Below are positions 2,525 to 8,672 of a stretch of 9,117 nt of DNA, one piece after another. The position numbers and the translations under genes were made by a program. Every line of letters starts with the position of its first letter. The stretch's first letter is position 1. The notes under the pieces were generated by a model. That model was not told the origin of the DNA. It did no database searches and saw nothing but the letters and a program-made list of their open reading frames with translations. This stretch comes from Chitinophagales bacterium (GTDB lineage Bacteria; Bacteroidota; Bacteroidia; Chitinophagales; UBA2359), in the NCBI GenBank assembly GCA_020629335.1, contig JAHDDN010000205.1, positions 1 to 9,117 of the forward strand, written 5' to 3'.

Positions 2525-3664
2525 ATGAAAGTAGTTAAAACCACCACCACCGCCCAAATTCAAAAAGCGCAGCAGCTCCTCCTCCAAGGGGACAAACTCG
2601 AAGCGGCGCACCTTGACCAAAACAGCAAAGTAAACTATCTATCTGATATTAAAGTTTTCAATCAATATTGTGAGGACTACGCACTCCAAGCACTACCAGC
2701 ATCGACCGCAACAATAAAGGCATACATAGCGCACCGAAAAAATAACGGCATCAAATACAGTACAATAAAACGCAATGTATTAGGTATTAGAAAGTGGCAC
2801 CTCCTCAAAGGAGAAGCGGACCCAATTACTGAGAAAATCAAAAACACGCTTAAAGGACTCCGTAAGACTTTACGCAGTGACTCGAATAATAAGCAGCTAA
2901 CAGCCGCCCAAAAGCGTCAAGCCTTAAAACAGATCACTAACAAGAAAGCCGCCGCTTTGAGTTTTCAGAAATTGGAGGAGGCATTGCAAGCAGTTGACGA
3001 AATAAGCGAAAAGCAACCGATTAAGTGCATAAGAGATAAGGCAATACTTAGCCTTTTGTTTTGGGGAGCTTTCAGGCGGTCCGAACTGGCAAGCCTCCAA
3101 GTTTTAGACGTAGCTCGAATCTTTGATAATAGCGGCGTACATTCTCATTATACTATCACTTTAAGAGACGCTAAAAACTTAGAAGATGATAACGACACCA
3201 AAGTGATTCCTTATCAATCTAATGTGGCTATTTGCCCAGCCCGAAAATTAAAGCAGTGGCTCGACCTTAGCGGCTACGGTACTATATTAGCTAACTATGA
3301 AGCGGCGCAGGAACTACTAGAAGAAGCAAAGACAACAGAGGCTAAAAAAGCAGCGCAGCAGCTCCTAAACATGGCAGAACTAAACGACACCTTTTTATTT
3401 CCATCTATGCGAAAAGGTGACAAGCTCCAAGAAGGCAAACCCATCACAGGAAAGACAGTTGATAGACTTGTAAAAAAGTACGCTGGCGCAGGTTTTAGCG
3501 GACATAGCGGACGAGTAGGATTTATTACAGAATCAAAAAGGCAAGGGCTAACAGATAGCCAAATTATGAACCAAAGTTTGCACAAAGTCGCTCGTTCTGT
3601 ACGTCGTTATGATGAATCTAAAAACGATATCAAGCAGAACGCCGCCGCTTTACTTAATGCTTAA
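2525..3664 (+). CDS. Tyrosine recombinase / integrase
   Basis: A 379-residue site-specific recombinase that cuts and rejoins DNA through a phosphotyrosine. Residues about 28-125 form the helical core-binding domain; residues about 145-379 form the catalytic domain. The active-site set is visible: Arg184 (GAFRRSELASL), Lys217 (LRDAKN), His327-x-x-Arg330 (SGHSGRVGF), His353 (LHKVARSV) and Tyr362 (RRYDE), with the normal 9-residue step from His353 to Tyr362. An unusual Ala/Glu/Leu helical insert (about residues 257-286) separates Lys217 from the HxxR box and contains two similar AAQxLL units. The start ATG 2525 has no Shine-Dalgarno sequence. A dif-like palindrome sits in the leader and a strong terminator follows at 3727. 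Plasmid multimer resolution or mobile-element integration are both possible. The single EcoRV-type site of the window (GATATC, 3626-3631) lies near the catalytic Tyr codon. Confidence 0.93.
   Translation: MKVVKTTTTAQIQKAQQLLLQGDKLEAAHLDQNSKVNYLSDIKVFNQYCEDYALQALPASTATIKAYIAHRKNNGIKYSTIKRNVLGIRKWHLLKGEADPITEKIKNTLKGLRKTLRSDSNNKQLTAAQKRQALKQITNKKAAALSFQKLEEALQAVDEISEKQPIKCIRDKAILSLLFWGAFRRSELASLQVLDVARIFDNSGVHSHYTITLRDAKNLEDDNDTKVIPYQSNVAICPARKLKQWLDLSGYGTILANYEAAQELLEEAKTTEAKKAAQQLLNMAELNDTFLFPSMRKGDKLQEGKPITGKTVDRLVKKYAGAGFSGHSGRVGFITESKRQGLTDSQIMNQSLHKVARSVRRYDESKNDIKQNAAALLNA
2567..2586 (+). repeat. 20-bp motif copy inside the recombinase gene
   Basis: GCGCAGCAGCTCCTCCTCCA is identical over all 20 bases to 8077-8096, which lies between genes. 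Here it encodes AQQLLLQ. A shortened copy (GCGCAGCAGCTCCT) recurs in the same gene at 3353-3366. Confidence 0.8.
3626..3631. other. GATATC site
   Basis: This is the only GATATC found by eye in the window. If the neighbouring operon has EcoRV specificity, the site would be cut unless methylated, so the methyltransferase must be active for this replicon to survive. Confidence 0.6.
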
Positions 3665-4089: not shown

Positions 4090-5043
4090 TTAAAATTTAA
4101 GCTCAAGTTGCTTAGGTGTTTTTTGCTTTTTGTTAGTCGTAGTTAATTGTGATTCTCCTTTTAAAATTCTCTGATTCATTTCATTATTAGATAGGCTTTC
4201 ATTTAAGGAAACATTTGAAAGAAGCGCCTCATAGACGGCATTTCTGTTTGATTCTTTCCCGCCCACATGATAAAAATGTTCTTTTGTGGTAACAAAACAA
4301 TCTTTCCATATACTGAAAATATAATCATTTGTTCTATATTTATTGCTCAACCAAGTAGATTGTATAAAAGTAGCACCTGATTTAATTAAACCGTCCTTAA
4401 GTAACATTTCTTCTTCTTCTGACCATGAATCAAAATAATCTACGTGTCGCCCAATATATGGTGGATCAGAATAAACCAAATCTGTTGGTCTTATTTCAGT
4501 AAGTGTATTTGAAAAATCTTGATTTTTGAAAGTAAAATTGCCGTTATCAATTATTTGACTAACATTTTCAACTTGGTTCGTAATTTTAGTAACCAGAGCT
4601 TTAGCAAAACGATTAGGTTTCTTACAAAATGGAACGTTAAATCCTCCTTTTTTATTAAATCGCATCATACCATTAAAGCAGGCTCGACTCAAAAAAAGAA
4701 AGTCCAGAGGGTTCCCCTCATTGTTAAACCTATTTCTTAATTCATAGTAATGTTGTCCGTCAGAATCAAGAAGTTTTTGGCCTTCTTTAATTAGATGGTC
4801 TTTTACTAATGCACTTGTTATTTTTTTTCTTTTTAAAGATTCGTAAAAATTTATAATGTGTGGATTGCTGTCACACATAAGGGACTCCTTAGCCTTAATG
4901 TTAAACCCAACGACTCCAGTCCCCATAAATGGTTCCACCCATCGTTCAAAATCAATATCTTTGACATTTAACGAAATCCAGCTAACAAGCTTGGTCTTAA
5001 TTCCTTGAGATTTAATTGGGGGTACTTGTGTTTTGTTTGTCAT
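4090..5043 (-). CDS. EcoRV-type adenine-N6 DNA methyltransferase (D12 class)
   Basis: This 317-residue enzyme would transfer a methyl group from S-adenosylmethionine to adenine within GATATC, protecting DNA from the companion endonuclease. It is a D12 (Dam-like, alpha-class) protein. Motif I is EPFMGTG (37-43), which binds the cofactor; motif IV is DPPY (193-196), the catalytic loop. The runs VPPIKSQGIKTKLV (7-20), RFNKKGGFNVPFCKKPNRF (128-146), PYIGRHVDYF and KEHFYHVG agree closely with M.EcoRV as I remember it. Length is close to that protein, with a Lys/Gln-rich tail. The start codon overlaps the endonuclease stop (ATGA, 5040-5043), so translation is probably coupled. The gene is AT-rich and free of the local GCAGC..CTCCTCC motif, which suggests acquisition. 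Target specificity is inferred, not shown. Confidence 0.93.
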   Translation of the reverse strand: MTNKTQVPPIKSQGIKTKLVSWISLNVKDIDFERWVEPFMGTGVVGFNIKAKESLMCDSNPHIINFYESLKRKKITSALVKDHLIKEGQKLLDSDGQHYYELRNRFNNEGNPLDFLFLSRACFNGMMRFNKKGGFNVPFCKKPNRFAKALVTKITNQVENVSQIIDNGNFTFKNQDFSNTLTEIRPTDLVYSDPPYIGRHVDYFDSWSEEEEMLLKDGLIKSGATFIQSTWLSNKYRTNDYIFSIWKDCFVTTKEHFYHVGGKESNRNAVYEALLSNVSLNESLSNNEMNQRILKGESQLTTTNKKQKTPKQLELKF

Positions 5044-5882
5044 AATTCTTCATCTTTAAAAGGCAGTTCTTGAATTTCTTTTTTATTCCTATCTAAGGCA
5101 TCTCGACCTTTTTCCTTATATTCTAAATAACTTTTTAAATTAGTATAAGGTCGTGAAATGCCTATTTCTTTTGACATTTTATTATCTATAAAGTGCATCC
5201 AGTAATCGTCAAAAACCTCTTCTCCAAGTTTTGAAAATATGCCTTTTCCTTCTATCAATTCTGCAATATTTCTTGAAGATCCTATATTTCGAGTATTCCC
5301 ACTTCCTTTACTTGCTGATGCTATTTTATACTTAGGTTGTACAAAGAATTGGAAATCTTTAATGACTGATTTTATTTTGCCTAAATCTTTAAGTTCAAAA
5401 ACATCTTTTTCATTTGGTTTGTCATCTGTATGAGAATAAAGGACACCAAATACAATGTGAGCTGAATACTCTGAATATGGATAGCTAATACTTGGCGTAT
5501 CATCTCTTTTTTGAAAATATCCTTGGTATGTCCCCAAAGTCATTCCTTTGATTCTTGTGTTAGATTGCTTAATAGAACTCTTAATGTCAACCGCAAATTT
5601 TTTATTTGTTTCATTGCATATAAAAGTTAGATCGGGATAAAAGTTTTGTTTTTCTTGATTTTCTAAGGATAAGTTATTCTCTTTTGCAAATTTTTCAAAT
5701 GCTGGAATTAATAAAATTTCAATTACCTTAGAGACAACCTTAGTATCTACGGAAATAGTGTAGATTCTACTATATATATCAATAAATCCCTTAACTATCC
5801 AGTCGCCATCATTTGACGCTATGATTTTATTGTAGCCTTGTGCCTCATTTCTAAGCGCTTTTTCAAATTCATCTTTATTCAT
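5040..5882 (-). CDS. EcoRV-like type II restriction endonuclease
   Basis: A 280-residue homologue of R.EcoRV (about 245 residues), which cuts GATATC to blunt ends with Mg2+. The PD-(D/E)xK active site is present: Asp84 in FYPDLTF, Asp99 and Lys101 in FAVDIKSS, and Glu55 (KVIEILLIP) at the position of EcoRV Glu45. The DNA-recognition loops are also conserved: KQN (78-80) matches the Q-loop before PD, and GSGNTRNIGS (193-202) matches the R-loop GSGNTTNIGS. VEGKGIF of EcoRV appears as IEGKGIF (210-216). DNA-contact residues are retained, so GATATC specificity is likely. The protein is longer than EcoRV mainly through a longer N-terminus and an extra charged C-terminus. It comes first in the operon, overlapping the methyltransferase by 4 bp. 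No controller gene lies next to it. Confidence 0.92.
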   Translation of the reverse strand: MNKDEFEKALRNEAQGYNKIIASNDGDWIVKGFIDIYSRIYTISVDTKVVSKVIEILLIPAFEKFAKENNLSLENQEKQNFYPDLTFICNETNKKFAVDIKSSIKQSNTRIKGMTLGTYQGYFQKRDDTPSISYPYSEYSAHIVFGVLYSHTDDKPNEKDVFELKDLGKIKSVIKDFQFFVQPKYKIASASKGSGNTRNIGSSRNIAELIEGKGIFSKLGEEVFDDYWMHFIDNKMSKEIGISRPYTNLKSYLEYKEKGRDALDRNKKEIQELPFKDEEL

Positions 5883-6732: not shown

Positions 6733-6846
6733 ATGAAAAAAAAAGGAATAAATTGTGTGGAATTTATGGTGTAAATGACTCTTAATAGTAGACGCCTATT
6801 TAGTAGAAACGAAAAATTAAGTTTTTATAGGCTTAATAATAGGTTT

Positions 6847-6883
6847 AGCCCTTGCCTTTTTCATTTTTAGGCAGGGGCTTTTT
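6847..6883 (+). terminator. Intrinsic terminator facing the partition operon
   Basis: AGCCCTTGCCT (6847-6857) pairs with AGGCAGGGGCT (6869-6879) with one U-G wobble, followed by TTTT. It stops + strand transcripts before they run against the minus-strand partition genes. The 6733-6846 stretch has no convincing gene, only a weak stem (GCCTAT 6794-6799 with ATAGGC 6827-6832). Confidence 0.75.
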
Positions 6884-6890
6884 ATATATC

Positions 6891-6910
6891 AGTATAAACG
6901 AGTTTATATT
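6891..6910. promoter_or_regulatory. Inverted GTTTATA repeat downstream of the partition genes (possible centromere site)
   Basis: AGTATAAAC (6891-6899) and GTTTATATT (6902-6910) form an inverted pair matching at 8 of 9 positions. The half-site GTTTATAC/T is the same one found upstream of parA at 7867-7953. Copies on both sides of the operon suit binding of the RHH partner as part of a parS-like centromere. Confidence 0.5.
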
Positions 6911-6919
6911 GATGTAAAG

Positions 6920-7243
6920 TTATTTAGTTTTATACTTGTGCTTTTTTTCGTACTTCGTAAGATATTCGTTTAATGCGTTTTCAATGAAAAGGTTTTGTAA
7001 GTTGTGCTTATCATCATCATTAAATTGGGCGTGTTGTACTGCCTTTTTTAAACGGCTTTTAGTTGTCGGATTCATCTTTATTAAATGACTTTTCCAATCT
7101 TTAGGTATTCGCTTTGTTGGGCCTGTCTTTTTAGAAACTGCTTTTTTAGCGTCATTCGCTTTCATTTGTTTAAACTCGCTCATAGGGTTAGTTCTGTTAT
7201 TTAAGTTGTTTTTAACTGCGCTTTTTTTCTTATCATCGCTCAT
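6920..7243 (-). CDS. Ribbon-helix-helix centromere-binding partner of ParA
   Basis: A 107-residue, very basic protein. The first 50 residues are Lys/Asn-rich and look flexible. Residues about 51-99 fit a ribbon-helix-helix domain: a short strand (SHLIKMN), helix A (PTTKSRLKKAVQHAQ) and helix B (KHNLQNLFIENALNEYLTKYEK). This is the build of ParG- and omega-type proteins, which bind centromere repeats as dimers, repress their own operon, and use the flexible N-terminus to stimulate ParA ATPase. The gene lies 11 bp downstream of parA on the same strand, the usual order in type Ib partition operons. No conserved sequence beyond the fold is recognised, so the call rests on fold pattern plus context. 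The likely targets are the GTTTATA repeats on either side. Confidence 0.75.
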   Translation of the reverse strand: MSDDKKKSAVKNNLNNRTNPMSEFKQMKANDAKKAVSKKTGPTKRIPKDWKSHLIKMNPTTKSRLKKAVQHAQFNDDDKHNLQNLFIENALNEYLTKYEKKHKYKTK

Positions 7244-7254
7244 AATATTCTGAT

Positions 7255-7854
7255 TTAGATTAATTCAGCTAACACGCTTTTTGTTAGCTCGTTTATTTCC
7301 TCAATAGCTCGACGGTTCCCAGCATCAAAAATGCTTTTGCCGTATTCGATGGATTCACTATATACAACTCTATTGTATATTATACCGTTTAATACCGATA
7401 TATTTTGAGTCTTTAATAAATCAATTGTTCTATGTAGGACATTGGAACGAGACGCCATATTTAGCACCGCTACGGCCTTTGTGTTAGTGTTGGCTGTTAT
7501 ATACTCATTTGTATTAATTAAGCTTATAGCGTCCATAATGGAGGGCTTACAGGGCATTAATACTAAATTAGAGGCTTTCAGTAGTGGCAGCGTGCGCTCC
7601 GTAGCTTGTGGCGCTAAGTCTGCTATTATAATCTTATGATCCAGCTTTGCCAAGTCGGACGGCTCCAGCACCTCCAGCAGTGGAAGCTCCAACGCTGGAA
7701 ATACATTTGCAATATTAGTTAATGACTTTTGTGTGTCAGCATCTACAATGCCAACCTTATGCCCCGTTTTTGCTAATGACTTAGCTAAGTGTATTGTTAA
7801 TGTAGTCTTTCCAGTACCTCCCTTATTGGTGAAAATCGAAACGAGTGCAGGCAT
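7255..7854 (-). CDS. parA: ParA-type partition ATPase (short, type Ib)
   Basis: A 199-residue P-loop ATPase of the ParA/MinD group that moves plasmid copies apart by forming ATP-bound dimers on the nucleoid. The deviant Walker A box is KGGTGKTT (11-18), with the signature Lys11 and catalytic Lys16. The A' box is DADTQKS (38-44) and Walker B is IIIADLAP (75-82, Asp79). About 200 residues without an N-terminal helix-turn-helix is typical of type Ib proteins such as ParF, which leave repression to the small partner. ATG 7854 follows an A-rich leader. A TATATTTG -7 box (7875-7882) and GTTTATA-type repeats lie directly upstream. The RHH partner follows after 11 bp. The stretch 7661-7680 carries the dispersed motif on the opposite (+) strand. 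Confidence 0.93.
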   Translation of the reverse strand: MPALVSIFTNKGGTGKTTLTIHLAKSLAKTGHKVGIVDADTQKSLTNIANVFPALELPLLEVLEPSDLAKLDHKIIIADLAPQATERTLPLLKASNLVLMPCKPSIMDAISLINTNEYITANTNTKAVAVLNMASRSNVLHRTIDLLKTQNISVLNGIIYNRVVYSESIEYGKSIFDAGNRRAIEEINELTKSVLAELI

Positions 7855-7866
7855 AGTTTAAGTTTT

Positions 7867-7953
7867 GGTTTATACAAATATACACCTTTTTATACTAATT
7901 GTTATCGGTATATTGTGTATATACTTGTTTAGTTTGTTTATACTAATATAAAC
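7867..7953. promoter_or_regulatory. Repeat array upstream of parA: operator and probable centromere
   Basis: Four related A/T-rich sites lie within 87 bp: GGTTTATACAAATATACACC (7867-7886, arms 7 of 8), TTTTTATACTAATTG (from 7887), GTATATTGTGTATATAC (7908-7924, 6-bp arms) and GTTTATACTAATATAAAC (7936-7953, perfect 7-bp arms). The first covers the parA -7 box and the last lies between the -33 and -7 boxes of a divergent promoter. One bound RHH protein could therefore control both directions. Confidence 0.65.
7875..7882 (-). promoter_or_regulatory. -7 box of the parA promoter
   Basis: On the minus strand these bases read TATATTTG, an exact match to the Bacteroidota -7 consensus TAnnTTTG. A start near 7868 would give a leader of only about 14 nt. 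No clear -33 TTTG is found at the expected distance, so activity may depend on the -7 box alone. Confidence 0.55.
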
Positions 7954-7964
7954 AACTATATTTG
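7933..7964 (+). promoter_or_regulatory. Divergent + strand promoter of the structured RNA
   Basis: TTTG (7933-7936), a 20-bp spacer and TATATTTG (7957-7964) match both Bacteroidota promoter boxes exactly. The spacer holds the perfect palindrome GTTTATACTAATATAAAC, so the partition RHH protein could repress it. Transcription would begin at about 7967-7971, at the first bases of the 14-bp stem described next. Confidence 0.65.
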
Positions 7965-7965
7965 C

Positions 7966-8061
7966 ACTGCTTACACTTCGATATACATACGATATTAAAA
8001 AGGCAAGCCCCTAATTTTACAATGAAGTGTAAGCAGTTTCATAAGTGATTTAGGGGCTTTT
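7966..8061 (+). ncRNA. Putative structured RNA with two interleaved stems (pseudoknot)
   Basis: Stem 1: ACTGCTTACACTTC (7966-7979) is the exact reverse complement of GAAGTGTAAGCAGT (8024-8037). Stem 2: AAGCCCCTAA (8005-8014) is the exact reverse complement of TTAGGGGCTT (8050-8059). The order is 1-left, 2-left, 1-right, 2-right, so both can form together only as a pseudoknot; otherwise they are alternative folds. Stem 2 ends in CTTTT and then a U-rich stretch, so it could also act as a terminator. The RNA would start right at stem 1, behind a good promoter. No open frame of note lies within it. Possible roles are a riboregulator of the downstream membrane-protein genes, an antisense or copy-number RNA, or an RNA antitoxin; none is established. 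Confidence 0.55.
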
Positions 8062-8076
8062 GCTGTTTTGTAAGAG

Positions 8077-8096
8077 GCGCAGCAGCTCCTCCTCCA
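8077..8096 (+). repeat. 20-bp motif copy between genes
   Basis: GCGCAGCAGCTCCTCCTCCA is identical to 2567-2586 in the recombinase gene. Here it is non-coding, just after the structured RNA, which supports a DNA-level or mutational origin for the motif. Confidence 0.8.
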
Positions 8097-8103
8097 GTAT
8101 CAA

Positions 8104-8147
8104 ATAAAAAAAGGTGCAAGTATCACACGCTAATGTCAACTTACACC
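8104..8147 (-). terminator. Minus-strand terminator-like hairpin
   Basis: GGTGCAAGT (8113-8121) pairs with ACTTACACC (8139-8147) except for one position. On the minus strand a run of seven T (A run from 8106) follows. It would end leftward transcripts from the 8150-8350 region before they reach the structured RNA and parA. No minus-strand gene is visible there. Confidence 0.45.
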
Positions 8148-8148
8148 C

Positions 8149-8166
8149 TAATCAAAAAACCGTATT
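8149..8166 (+). repeat. 18-bp direct repeat, copy 1
   Basis: TAATCAAAAAACCGTATT differs at one base from 8333-8350. It runs into a small palindrome, CGTATT-A-AATACG (8161-8173). Confidence 0.55.
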
Positions 8167-8218
8167 AAATACGATTCCATGACAAAGATAAGCTTTTCTA
8201 TTAGAGCGCCATAGTTGC

Positions 8219-8325
8219 GCCCCTACCCTATGCAAAAAAAAAGGAGGCCCGAAGGTGCCACCACTAGCAAACACACGCATAAAAGCCTAAAAAACTACCT
8301 ACACGCTATAAAATAGGGTAGGGGC
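8219..8325. repeat. Long-range perfect inverted repeat, 13-bp arms
   Basis: GCCCCTACCCTAT (8219-8231) is the exact reverse complement of ATAGGGTAGGGGC (8313-8325), enclosing 81 bp. The arms share GCCCCTA and TAGGGGC with stem 2 of the RNA at 7966-8061. The right arm ends 26 bp before ATG 8352, so a stem in the mRNA leader could influence translation of the membrane-protein genes. Confidence 0.65.
8234..8262 (-). terminator. Minus-strand terminator-like hairpin inside the long inverted repeat
   Basis: GGAGGC (8243-8248) pairs with GCCACC (8257-8262) apart from one A-A mismatch, over an 8-nt loop. On the minus strand nine T follow (A run 8234-8242). Together with the hairpin at 8104-8147 it would block leftward transcription twice, or end a short leftward RNA starting near 8350. 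Confidence 0.4.
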
Positions 8326-8332
8326 TTATTAT

Positions 8333-8350
8333 TAATCAAAAAACTGTATT
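8333..8350 (+). repeat. 18-bp direct repeat, copy 2, at the start of the membrane-protein gene
   Basis: TAATCAAAAAACTGTATT matches 8149-8166 at 17 of 18 bases and ends one base before ATG 8352. The two copies frame the hairpin-rich segment. Confidence 0.55.
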
Positions 8351-8351
8351 T

Positions 8352-8672
8352 ATGTATTTCAAAAAAAAGACAGCCGCCGAACAAGCAGCGGCCACCGAAA
8401 AAATAAACGGCCCCATTTATATAGCAGATCCTCCAGCGCACAAGCTGCGAAATCATTATTTACTACGCCACCCAGCCACCGCAATAGTTGGCGCTATTGG
8501 CTTTGTTCTCCTCCTCCTTATGTTGGCAAGTATTCCAGCCGACACCGCCCGAAGTGTCGAAAAAAAGCCCGTCATCAAATTTGAAAATATCAATTTCTAT
8601 TCCTGCGATGATGAAAGCGAACCGATTAGCTTAAACCATTTGTTCACCTCCTCAAATTCTAATCATGCCTAA
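8352..8672 (+). CDS. Small single-span membrane protein, 106 residues
   Basis: A basic N-terminus (MYFKKK) leads into an Ala-rich helix and a polar stretch. One strong membrane helix follows at about residues 42-61 (ATAIVGAIGFVLLLLMLASI), preceded by LRNHYLLRH. The positive charges before the helix suggest the N-terminus stays in the cytoplasm, with the acidic C-terminal 45 residues outside the inner membrane. There is no signal-peptide cleavage motif and no recognised family. ATG 8352 has no Shine-Dalgarno sequence and sits just behind an 18-bp direct repeat and a long inverted repeat. The last 8 bp overlap the next gene (ATGCCTAA), which suggests coupled translation and joint function. Plasmid transfer, surface exclusion or toxin-like roles are all possible for such a pair. 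Confidence 0.65.
   Translation: MYFKKKTAAEQAAATEKINGPIYIADPPAHKLRNHYLLRHPATAIVGAIGFVLLLLMLASIPADTARSVEKKPVIKFENINFYSCDDESEPISLNHLFTSSNSNHA

Follow-up and report, generated by a model that had tools for sequence, protein, structure and literature searches.

The window, i.e., the whole stretch of DNA analysed here, comprises an entire contig of 9117 nt, which is judged to be incomplete, as its first ORF lacks a start and what is probably its last gene starts only 15 nt from the contig end. Domain matches identify a helix-turn-helix protein (926-1255), a tyrosine recombinase (2525-3664), and an EcoRV-like restriction-modification pair (4090-5882). In the latter, an EcoRV-family restriction enzyme (Pfam E value 9e-96) is situated alongside a D12-class adenine methyltransferase, and relatives occur in 12 plasmid records, each with less than 60% identity. 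A 174-aa orphan ORF retrieved only itself when searched, and its structure prediction (pLDDT 35.5) yielded no usable fold. The minus strand carries parA (7255-7854), after which the ORF list gives a gene for a small protein (6920-7243); a -7 box at 7882-7875 places the predicted start of parA at around 7870, the best -33 box having three mismatches. Divergent from parA follow a predicted structured RNA of around 100 nt on the plus strand (RNA1, 7969-8070), a predicted RNA on the minus strand (RNA2, 8104-8178), a candidate leader peptide ORF (8179-8214), a further hairpin (hairpin 2, 8219-8325), and two conserved genes for small proteins with a hydrophobic segment. The first of these (8352-8672) encodes 106 aa with one such segment, recognized by sequence reading, and the second is located at 8665. 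Neither the 8352 product nor its relative described below has a Pfam match above the cut-off. Concerning the composition of the window, GCTCCTCC occurs in eight copies on the plus strand (e.g., at 390, 705, 6172, and 6313) and in none on the minus strand (shuffle mean 0.04, largest count 1 in 200 shuffles); the copies are found in coding and non-coding DNA, often inside GCAGCAGCTCCTCCTCC-like stretches. Of 29 intervals of 600 nt, 23 show a negative GC skew, regardless of gene strand.

A profile of the 8665 protein recovered a single relative among genome contigs, JAHDBX010000219.1 (4054 nt, hereafter L001), which is the only relative compared as DNA. It is labelled as part of a gammaproteobacterial MAG, and may possibly have been mis-binned. 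Both contigs share the order recombinase end, small protein, parA, RNA1, RNA2, leader ORF, hairpin 2, and two small proteins. L001 has two additional ORFs, one of 94 codons that follows the recombinase and one of 81 codons between RNA1 and RNA2, and the window contains the restriction-modification pair and the 174-codon ORF in addition. Identity between the encoded proteins amounts to 43% for ParA, 44% over 63 residues for the small protein after parA, 45% over 87 residues for the 8352 product, and 63% for the 8665 product. A second conserved non-coding block (6820-6865 in the window, 565-611 in L001) includes a terminator-like stretch and is situated past the 3' end of the small gene that follows parA. 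Two further relatives are known as proteins, P0032 (on a contig of 9066 nt) and P0002 (986 nt). Searches for additional relatives of the locus were negative: blastn of 7850-8340 against plasmids and phages and tblastn of the 8665 protein against the same sets found no match, tblastn of ParA against plasmids returned 664 records, none with an identity of at least 60%, and L001:1800-1950 (plasmids, E up to 10) matched 23 records with short matches only, E values ranging from 1 to 5 among the matches listed. Scans of viral contigs gave no relative, the 6, 8, and 1 inspected loci showing no other arms around the match, and a pattern search in 100 genomes of the phylum assigned to the genome of L001 matched only that genome.

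The most conspicuous feature of the intergenic region is a set of four perfectly complementary, interleaved arms, 7966-7979 with 8024-8037 (14 bp) and 8005-8014 with 8050-8059 (10 bp), exactly as given in a preliminary description of the locus. When the whole window was shuffled 300 times with dinucleotides preserved, perfect inverted repeats of at least 12 and at least 9 bp that interleave within 120 nt never occurred (0/300); two interleaved repeats of at least 9 bp each were present in 6 shuffles, and any repeat of at least 14 bp within 120 nt in 4.

The arms are preceded by an exact Bacteroidota-type promoter motif, TTTG-N20-TATATTTG (7933-7964, plus strand), as likewise claimed before. 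It is the sole exact match on either strand of the window, and 74 of 300 shuffles also contain at least one, such that the motif alone is not beyond chance. Its value rests on conservation, since L001 possesses CTTG-N20-TACCTTTG with one mismatch at the same place (1795-1826). According to PMC9723704, the flavobacterial -7 box occupies positions -12 to -5, which would place the transcription starts at around G7969 in the window and A1831 in L001. The similarity detected by blastn begins at 7969 (1832 in L001), i.e., at the predicted start in the window. Exact plus-strand copies of TAnnTTTG are found once in the window between 7800 and 9117 and once in L001 between 1600 and 3300, and both belong to the RNA1 promoter. 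Allowing one mismatch adds one match in each contig, at 8012 (within RNA1) and at L001 2271, where the -33 boxes match poorly, with 2 and 4 mismatches, respectively. Promoter-like sites of the E. coli type are more numerous and occur even on the plus strand in RNA1 (e.g., window 7995-8023, L001 1833-1861); little weight is given to them, as the host is presumed, from the promoter motifs only, to belong to the Bacteroidota. An RNA1 acting as antisense to parA mRNA was considered and rejected, because the two would not overlap if parA starts at around 7870 (1633 in L001), as the -7 boxes suggest.

With a start at G7969, the pairs of 7966-7968 would lie upstream of the RNA, and stem 1 is therefore 12 rather than 14 bp long in the predicted transcript: its left arm (7969-7980) forms the 5' end and pairs with 8023-8034 through 11 Watson-Crick pairs and one G-U pair. 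Stem 2 joins 8005-8013 to 8051-8059, position 8014 being paired in the window only. Outward, an imperfect extension (7998-8004 on the left side) consists of a two-base bulge, GGC/GCU, and an A-tract/U-tract pairing, and the right arm runs into a U-rich tail (8058-8069). Stem 2 with this tail has the appearance of a long-looped intrinsic terminator; a terminator scan restricted to loops of up to 8 nt does not cover such a hairpin. The earlier proposal that transcription begins at the first stem base and ends near 8061 thus retains its promoter, whereas the start shifts to around G7969 and the U-rich tail makes a 3' end at around 8068-8070 more likely.

Judged from complementarity, the 5' end of RNA1 can pair into the loop of stem 2, the right arm of stem 1 being situated within that loop. 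In complementarity and loop lengths, the layout is that of an H-type pseudoknot with stems of 12 and 9 bp and loops of 24/9/16 and 27/9/14 nt. Under nested folding, the extended stem 2 reaches a mean pair probability of around 0.87 and stem 1 one near 0; a transcript ending short of the right arm of stem 2 folds into stem 1, which as a duplex amounts to around -17 kcal/mol. On the basis of these nested folds and the duplex energy, the coexistence of both stems in a pseudoknot appears plausible. Folding z scores for RNA1 are -2.7 on the plus and -2.8 on the minus strand of the window, such that the plus strand is not favoured, and -4.3 on the plus strand of L001. A conserved peptide at 8022-8048 inside RNA1 was rejected, as the frame ends differently in L001.

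RNA1 represents the strongest similarity between the two contigs outside genes (blastn 81%, 83/103 columns, with L001 1832-1932). Identical columns are concentrated in the arms, with 11/12 in the left and 12/12 in the right arm of stem 1 and 9/9 in either arm of stem 2 (41 of 42 bases together); the counts are 21/27 in loop 1, 2/9 in loop 2, 11/16 in loop 3, and 9/11 in the tail. With gaps counted as differences, 53 of 54 paired columns are identical versus 31 of 51 others (Fisher p 7.5e-7). None of the 27 pairs is non-standard in either contig; 26 are invariant, and one varies between G-U and A-U. The pairs 7966-7968/8035-8037 and 8014/8050 of the window are not kept in L001. In the 12- and 9-bp cores, no arm has changed without compensation in this one relative, and no compensatory change is found either, as the stems are almost invariant: between the two sequences compared, no pair has changed on both sides. 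Both minimum free energy folds contain an inner helix that joins loops 2 and 3, and this helix could be read as one compensatory change; as this requires an alignment shift by two columns, it was not counted. The sequence conservation thus supports the arms as a unit, without covariation. Among the Rfam 15 matches listed for the window and for L001, none reaches the curated gathering score, in line with the earlier remark that no described RNA is known to match this layout; the nearest match at RNA1 is SSRC41 (25.2 of 60 bits). A literature search with a limited set of terms found no description of this RNA.

Concerning the promoter spacer, the GTTTATA palindrome that was said to be common to it and the partition sites is indeed part of a cluster: five of the eight occurrences of the half-site on both strands lie within 6890-7960 at the partition operon, and two palindromes (6893-6908 and, in the spacer, 7936-7953) flank the parA operon. 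Control of RNA1 by a partition protein, as suggested earlier, is accordingly plausible in the window as far as the motifs indicate. In L001, a different heptamer, ATTAATA, is found upstream of parA (1634-1830 holds 5 of its 9 copies) and is absent from the promoter spacer, such that the link is not conserved in that form. Nor could a DNA-binding fold of the small protein after parA be confirmed; a ribbon-helix-helix assignment is not claimed, the predicted structure being too poor (pLDDT 57.7).

RNA1 is accompanied by three elements that were absent from the preliminary description, i.e., RNA2, the leader ORF, and hairpin 2. RNA2 is predicted to run from 8178 to 8104 on the minus strand and comprises a 5' hairpin and a terminator hairpin (8147-8139/8121-8113) with a U run at 8112-8106. 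Its candidate promoter, TATG-N19-TATCTTTG (8183-8213, minus strand), corresponds to a box at 2296-2289 in L001 that keeps TATATTTG and whose best -33 box has two mismatches; from the boxes TATCTTTG and TATATTTG, the predicted starts are 8178 and 2284, respectively. The sequence between box and terminator has diverged; both contigs possess the 5' hairpin and the terminator hairpin, with seven U after the latter. Folding is strand-specific, with energies of -23.9 (window) and -25.9 kcal/mol (L001) versus -10.2 and -14.3 kcal/mol on the opposite strand, and z scores of -5.1 and -4.6. The nearest Rfam match at RNA2 of L001 is BTnc201 of Bacteroides (26.6 of 105 bits). In both contigs, the predicted RNA2 start is located 1 nt before the ATG of the leader ORF on the other strand, and the predicted RNA2 covers the stretch just upstream of this ATG.

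The leader ORF itself comprises 11-12 codons on the plus strand, encoding MTKISFSIRAP before the stop in the window (8179-8214) and MTNIQHLSIRGP in L001 (2285-2323). It ends in RAP-stop and RGP-stop, respectively, R[AG]P-stop being found once in the six frames of each contig; a shared Ser is encoded by TCT in one contig and by AGC in the other. Hairpin 2 (arms 8219-8231 and 8313-8325, 13 bp) begins 4 nt past the leader stop and ends 26 nt (32 nt in L001) before the next start codon, and its loop keeps TGCCACCA. Both the leader ORF and hairpin 2 are kept in L001, again on the same strand. The motif TGCCACCA is found once in the window, in hairpin 2, and nine times on the plus strand of L001 (none on the minus strand), eight copies lying near the contig end (3915-4039) and another at 2365. 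The window also contains two copies of the 18-nt repeat TAATCAAAAAACYGTATT, one at 8149-8166 ahead of the leader ORF and one at 8333-8350 ahead of gene 8352, with different distances to the ATG. The idea that stem 2 and hairpin 2 are linked by design was rejected, as equally many 8-mers are shared in 96 of 1000 shuffles.

Judged from this layout, all parts are most simply accommodated by a transcript of the plus strand that has RNA1 at its head and is partly terminated at stem 2. RNA1 would then be an attenuator, the pseudoknot-forming 5' leader of an operon read from the plus strand of a small, plasmid-like, probably Bacteroidota element, an interpretation to which we assign a probability of about 0.4; the arrangement would probably represent an RNA-controlled operon head of an uncatalogued kind. 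Transcription would start at G7969, and the 5' end would pair with 8023-8034 once that stretch emerges, whereupon stem 2 with its A-tract/U-tract extension would close around stem 1 as an intrinsic terminator. Some polymerases would stop at around 8069 and release a compact RNA of around 100 nt, whereas the remaining ones would pass through the leader ORF and hairpin 2 into 8352, 8665, and probably the next gene. RNA2, encoded on the opposite strand immediately ahead of the leader ATG, would block leader translation by antisense pairing. Such an antisense role of RNA2 requires a plus transcript across 8104-8178, a further point for the attenuator reading. This attenuator reading is favoured by the location of RNA1 at the same place in L001, by paired columns that are kept better than the remaining ones and better than ParA (43%), by the lack of any other exact plus-strand TAnnTTTG box in the regions searched, and by the conservation of leader ORF and hairpin 2 on the same strand. 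It is weakened by the comparison of two sequences only, without covariation, by folding scores that do not distinguish the plus strand of RNA1, and by nested folds that favour stem 2 and leave stem 1 with a probability close to nil. The E. coli-type sites inside RNA1, the 81-codon ORF of L001 between RNA1 and RNA2, the imperfect -33 boxes of RNA2, the gammaproteobacterial label of L001, and the sharing of 8-mers at chance level likewise weaken it. If an attenuator is indeed present, a single short locus would bring together a terminator with a pseudoknot, an antisense RNA, and possibly an arrest peptide of the Pro-stop type, and would offer a compact test case for RNA control on mobile elements of Bacteroidota.

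A further weakness of the attenuator reading is that stem 2 looks like a complete terminator and RNA1 may simply end there. The likeliest alternative is a stand-alone, stable small RNA that has its 5' end tied into the terminator loop and acts in trans or binds a protein. Such an RNA would have its own promoter, the terminator-like stem 2 with U-rich tail, and a 5' end paired from the first base; the stems and much of loop 1 (21/27 columns) are strongly conserved, and regulatory small RNAs encoded by Bacteroides mobile elements (RteR of CTnDOT) provide a precedent. Pairing between RNA1 and RNA2 could be modelled, the model carrying no chance control. As this explanation leaves the conserved leader ORF, RNA2, and hairpin 2 before genes that have no exact TAnnTTTG unaccounted for, we consider it rather unlikely.

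RNA1, RNA2, and hairpin 2 might instead form the origin of a plasmid without Rep, in which one of the RNAs would prime or regulate replication; ColE1 and those parABS mycobacteriophages that lack repA would be the models. No Rep domain (Pfam or PHROGs) was found among the window and L001 proteins compared, in sets of 10, 10, and 7 that partly overlap and exclude very short ORFs, and the prominence of RNA1 as the strongest similarity outside genes would suit an origin, as would the predominantly negative GC skew, which might be expected for one-way replication. The non-coding RNA predicted here is divergent from parA, as is that of the phages Alma and LadyBird (PMC7157519). However, the contig is probably incomplete, so that a Rep gene could be missing, and orphan ORFs are present; the predicted RNA1 (7969-8070) and RNA2 (8178-8104) do not overlap, unlike ColE1 RNA I/II; the Alma region contains no perfect repeat above 7 bp; DnaA-box-like sites show no excess (9 versus a shuffle mean of 11.7); and the skew is not negative in 6 of the 29 intervals, five of which do not adjoin the candidate origin. 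An origin of this kind is thus considered unlikely. More doubtful still is the extended proposal that the two RNAs together with the leader peptide and hairpin 2 make up the core for replication and maintenance in a Rep-less plasmid family of Bacteroidota, in which the pseudoknot RNA and a convergent antisense RNA would set the copy number next to the partition genes. If replication were indeed their role, they would constitute an RNA-based replicon in Bacteroidota, of which we know no example.

That the stem sequences are invariant rather than covarying, that a tyrosine recombinase and parA are present on the same element, and that partition-like heptamers reach into the promoter would also fit a DNA-level element (origin, recombination or partition site), the arms being protein-binding inverted repeats and any RNA incidental. 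We regard this as improbable, as the predicted transcription start is where the similarity sets in, the element lies in the direction of the conserved promoter, and the single variable pair (G-U/A-U) pairs only in the plus-strand RNA. Least probable of all is an ordinary intrinsic terminator with a second complementarity arisen by chance, since, despite the resemblance of stem 2 to another GCCC/GGGGC terminator-like stretch at around 6845-6885 (left part conserved in L001), the 12 bp of stem 1 are fully paired in both contigs, the arms are kept though loop 2 has changed (2/9), and no shuffle reproduced the arrangement (0/300).

Among known systems, ColE1 RNA I is antisense to the 5' part of the primer RNA II, whereas the predicted RNA1 and RNA2 are without overlap. 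In CopA/CopT-tap-repA of IncFII plasmids, a two-hairpin antisense RNA of around 75-90 nt is directed against the leader of a gene controlled by a leader peptide; the locus described here resembles it, by description, in the combination of a two-hairpin antisense RNA with a leader-peptide gene, but has no Rep downstream by Pfam, and we know of no IncFII counterpart of RNA1. RteR, a small RNA of CTnDOT in Bacteroides, is similar, again by description, as a small RNA encoded by a Bacteroidota mobile element.

The hok gene, for its part, is not known to include a 5' pseudoknot RNA. The hok/mok/sok system (PMC4147584), whose antisense RNA overlies a leader ORF ahead of the gene for a small toxin, is comparable in the antisense RNA, predicted here, at the start region of the leader ORF, the small protein gene downstream, and the setting of plasmid maintenance, whereas here the downstream protein has 106 aa, more genes follow it, and it is not known to kill.

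Stalling at Pro-stop is known from TnaC. RAPP and RGPP are arrest motifs (PMC12992588 and PMC9426467), and the present leader ORF resembles their leaders as an upstream ORF with a C-terminal R-A-P or R-G-P before other genes; the second proline is replaced here by the stop codon, such that a C-terminal RAPP or RGPP is not found in this ORF (RAP-stop or RGP-stop), and the peptide has only 11-12 residues.

The RNA origins of the parABS mycobacteriophages Alma, LadyBird, and RedRock share with the present locus, as predicted here, a non-coding RNA directed away from parA, its position adjoining the partition genes, and the lack of an identified Rep. In the one phage compared, of five named in PMC7157519, the Alma region differs from RNA1 in being 497 nt long and G+C-rich; one pair of 7-mers interleaves in it, which is taken as chance. 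According to PMC7157519, the non-coding RNA region divergent from parA is required for stable lysogeny of Alma and LadyBird, and a role in replication was shown there, whereas such a role is only conjecture here; the promoter positions found in the window fit a non-coding RNA that is likewise divergent from and adjoining parA.
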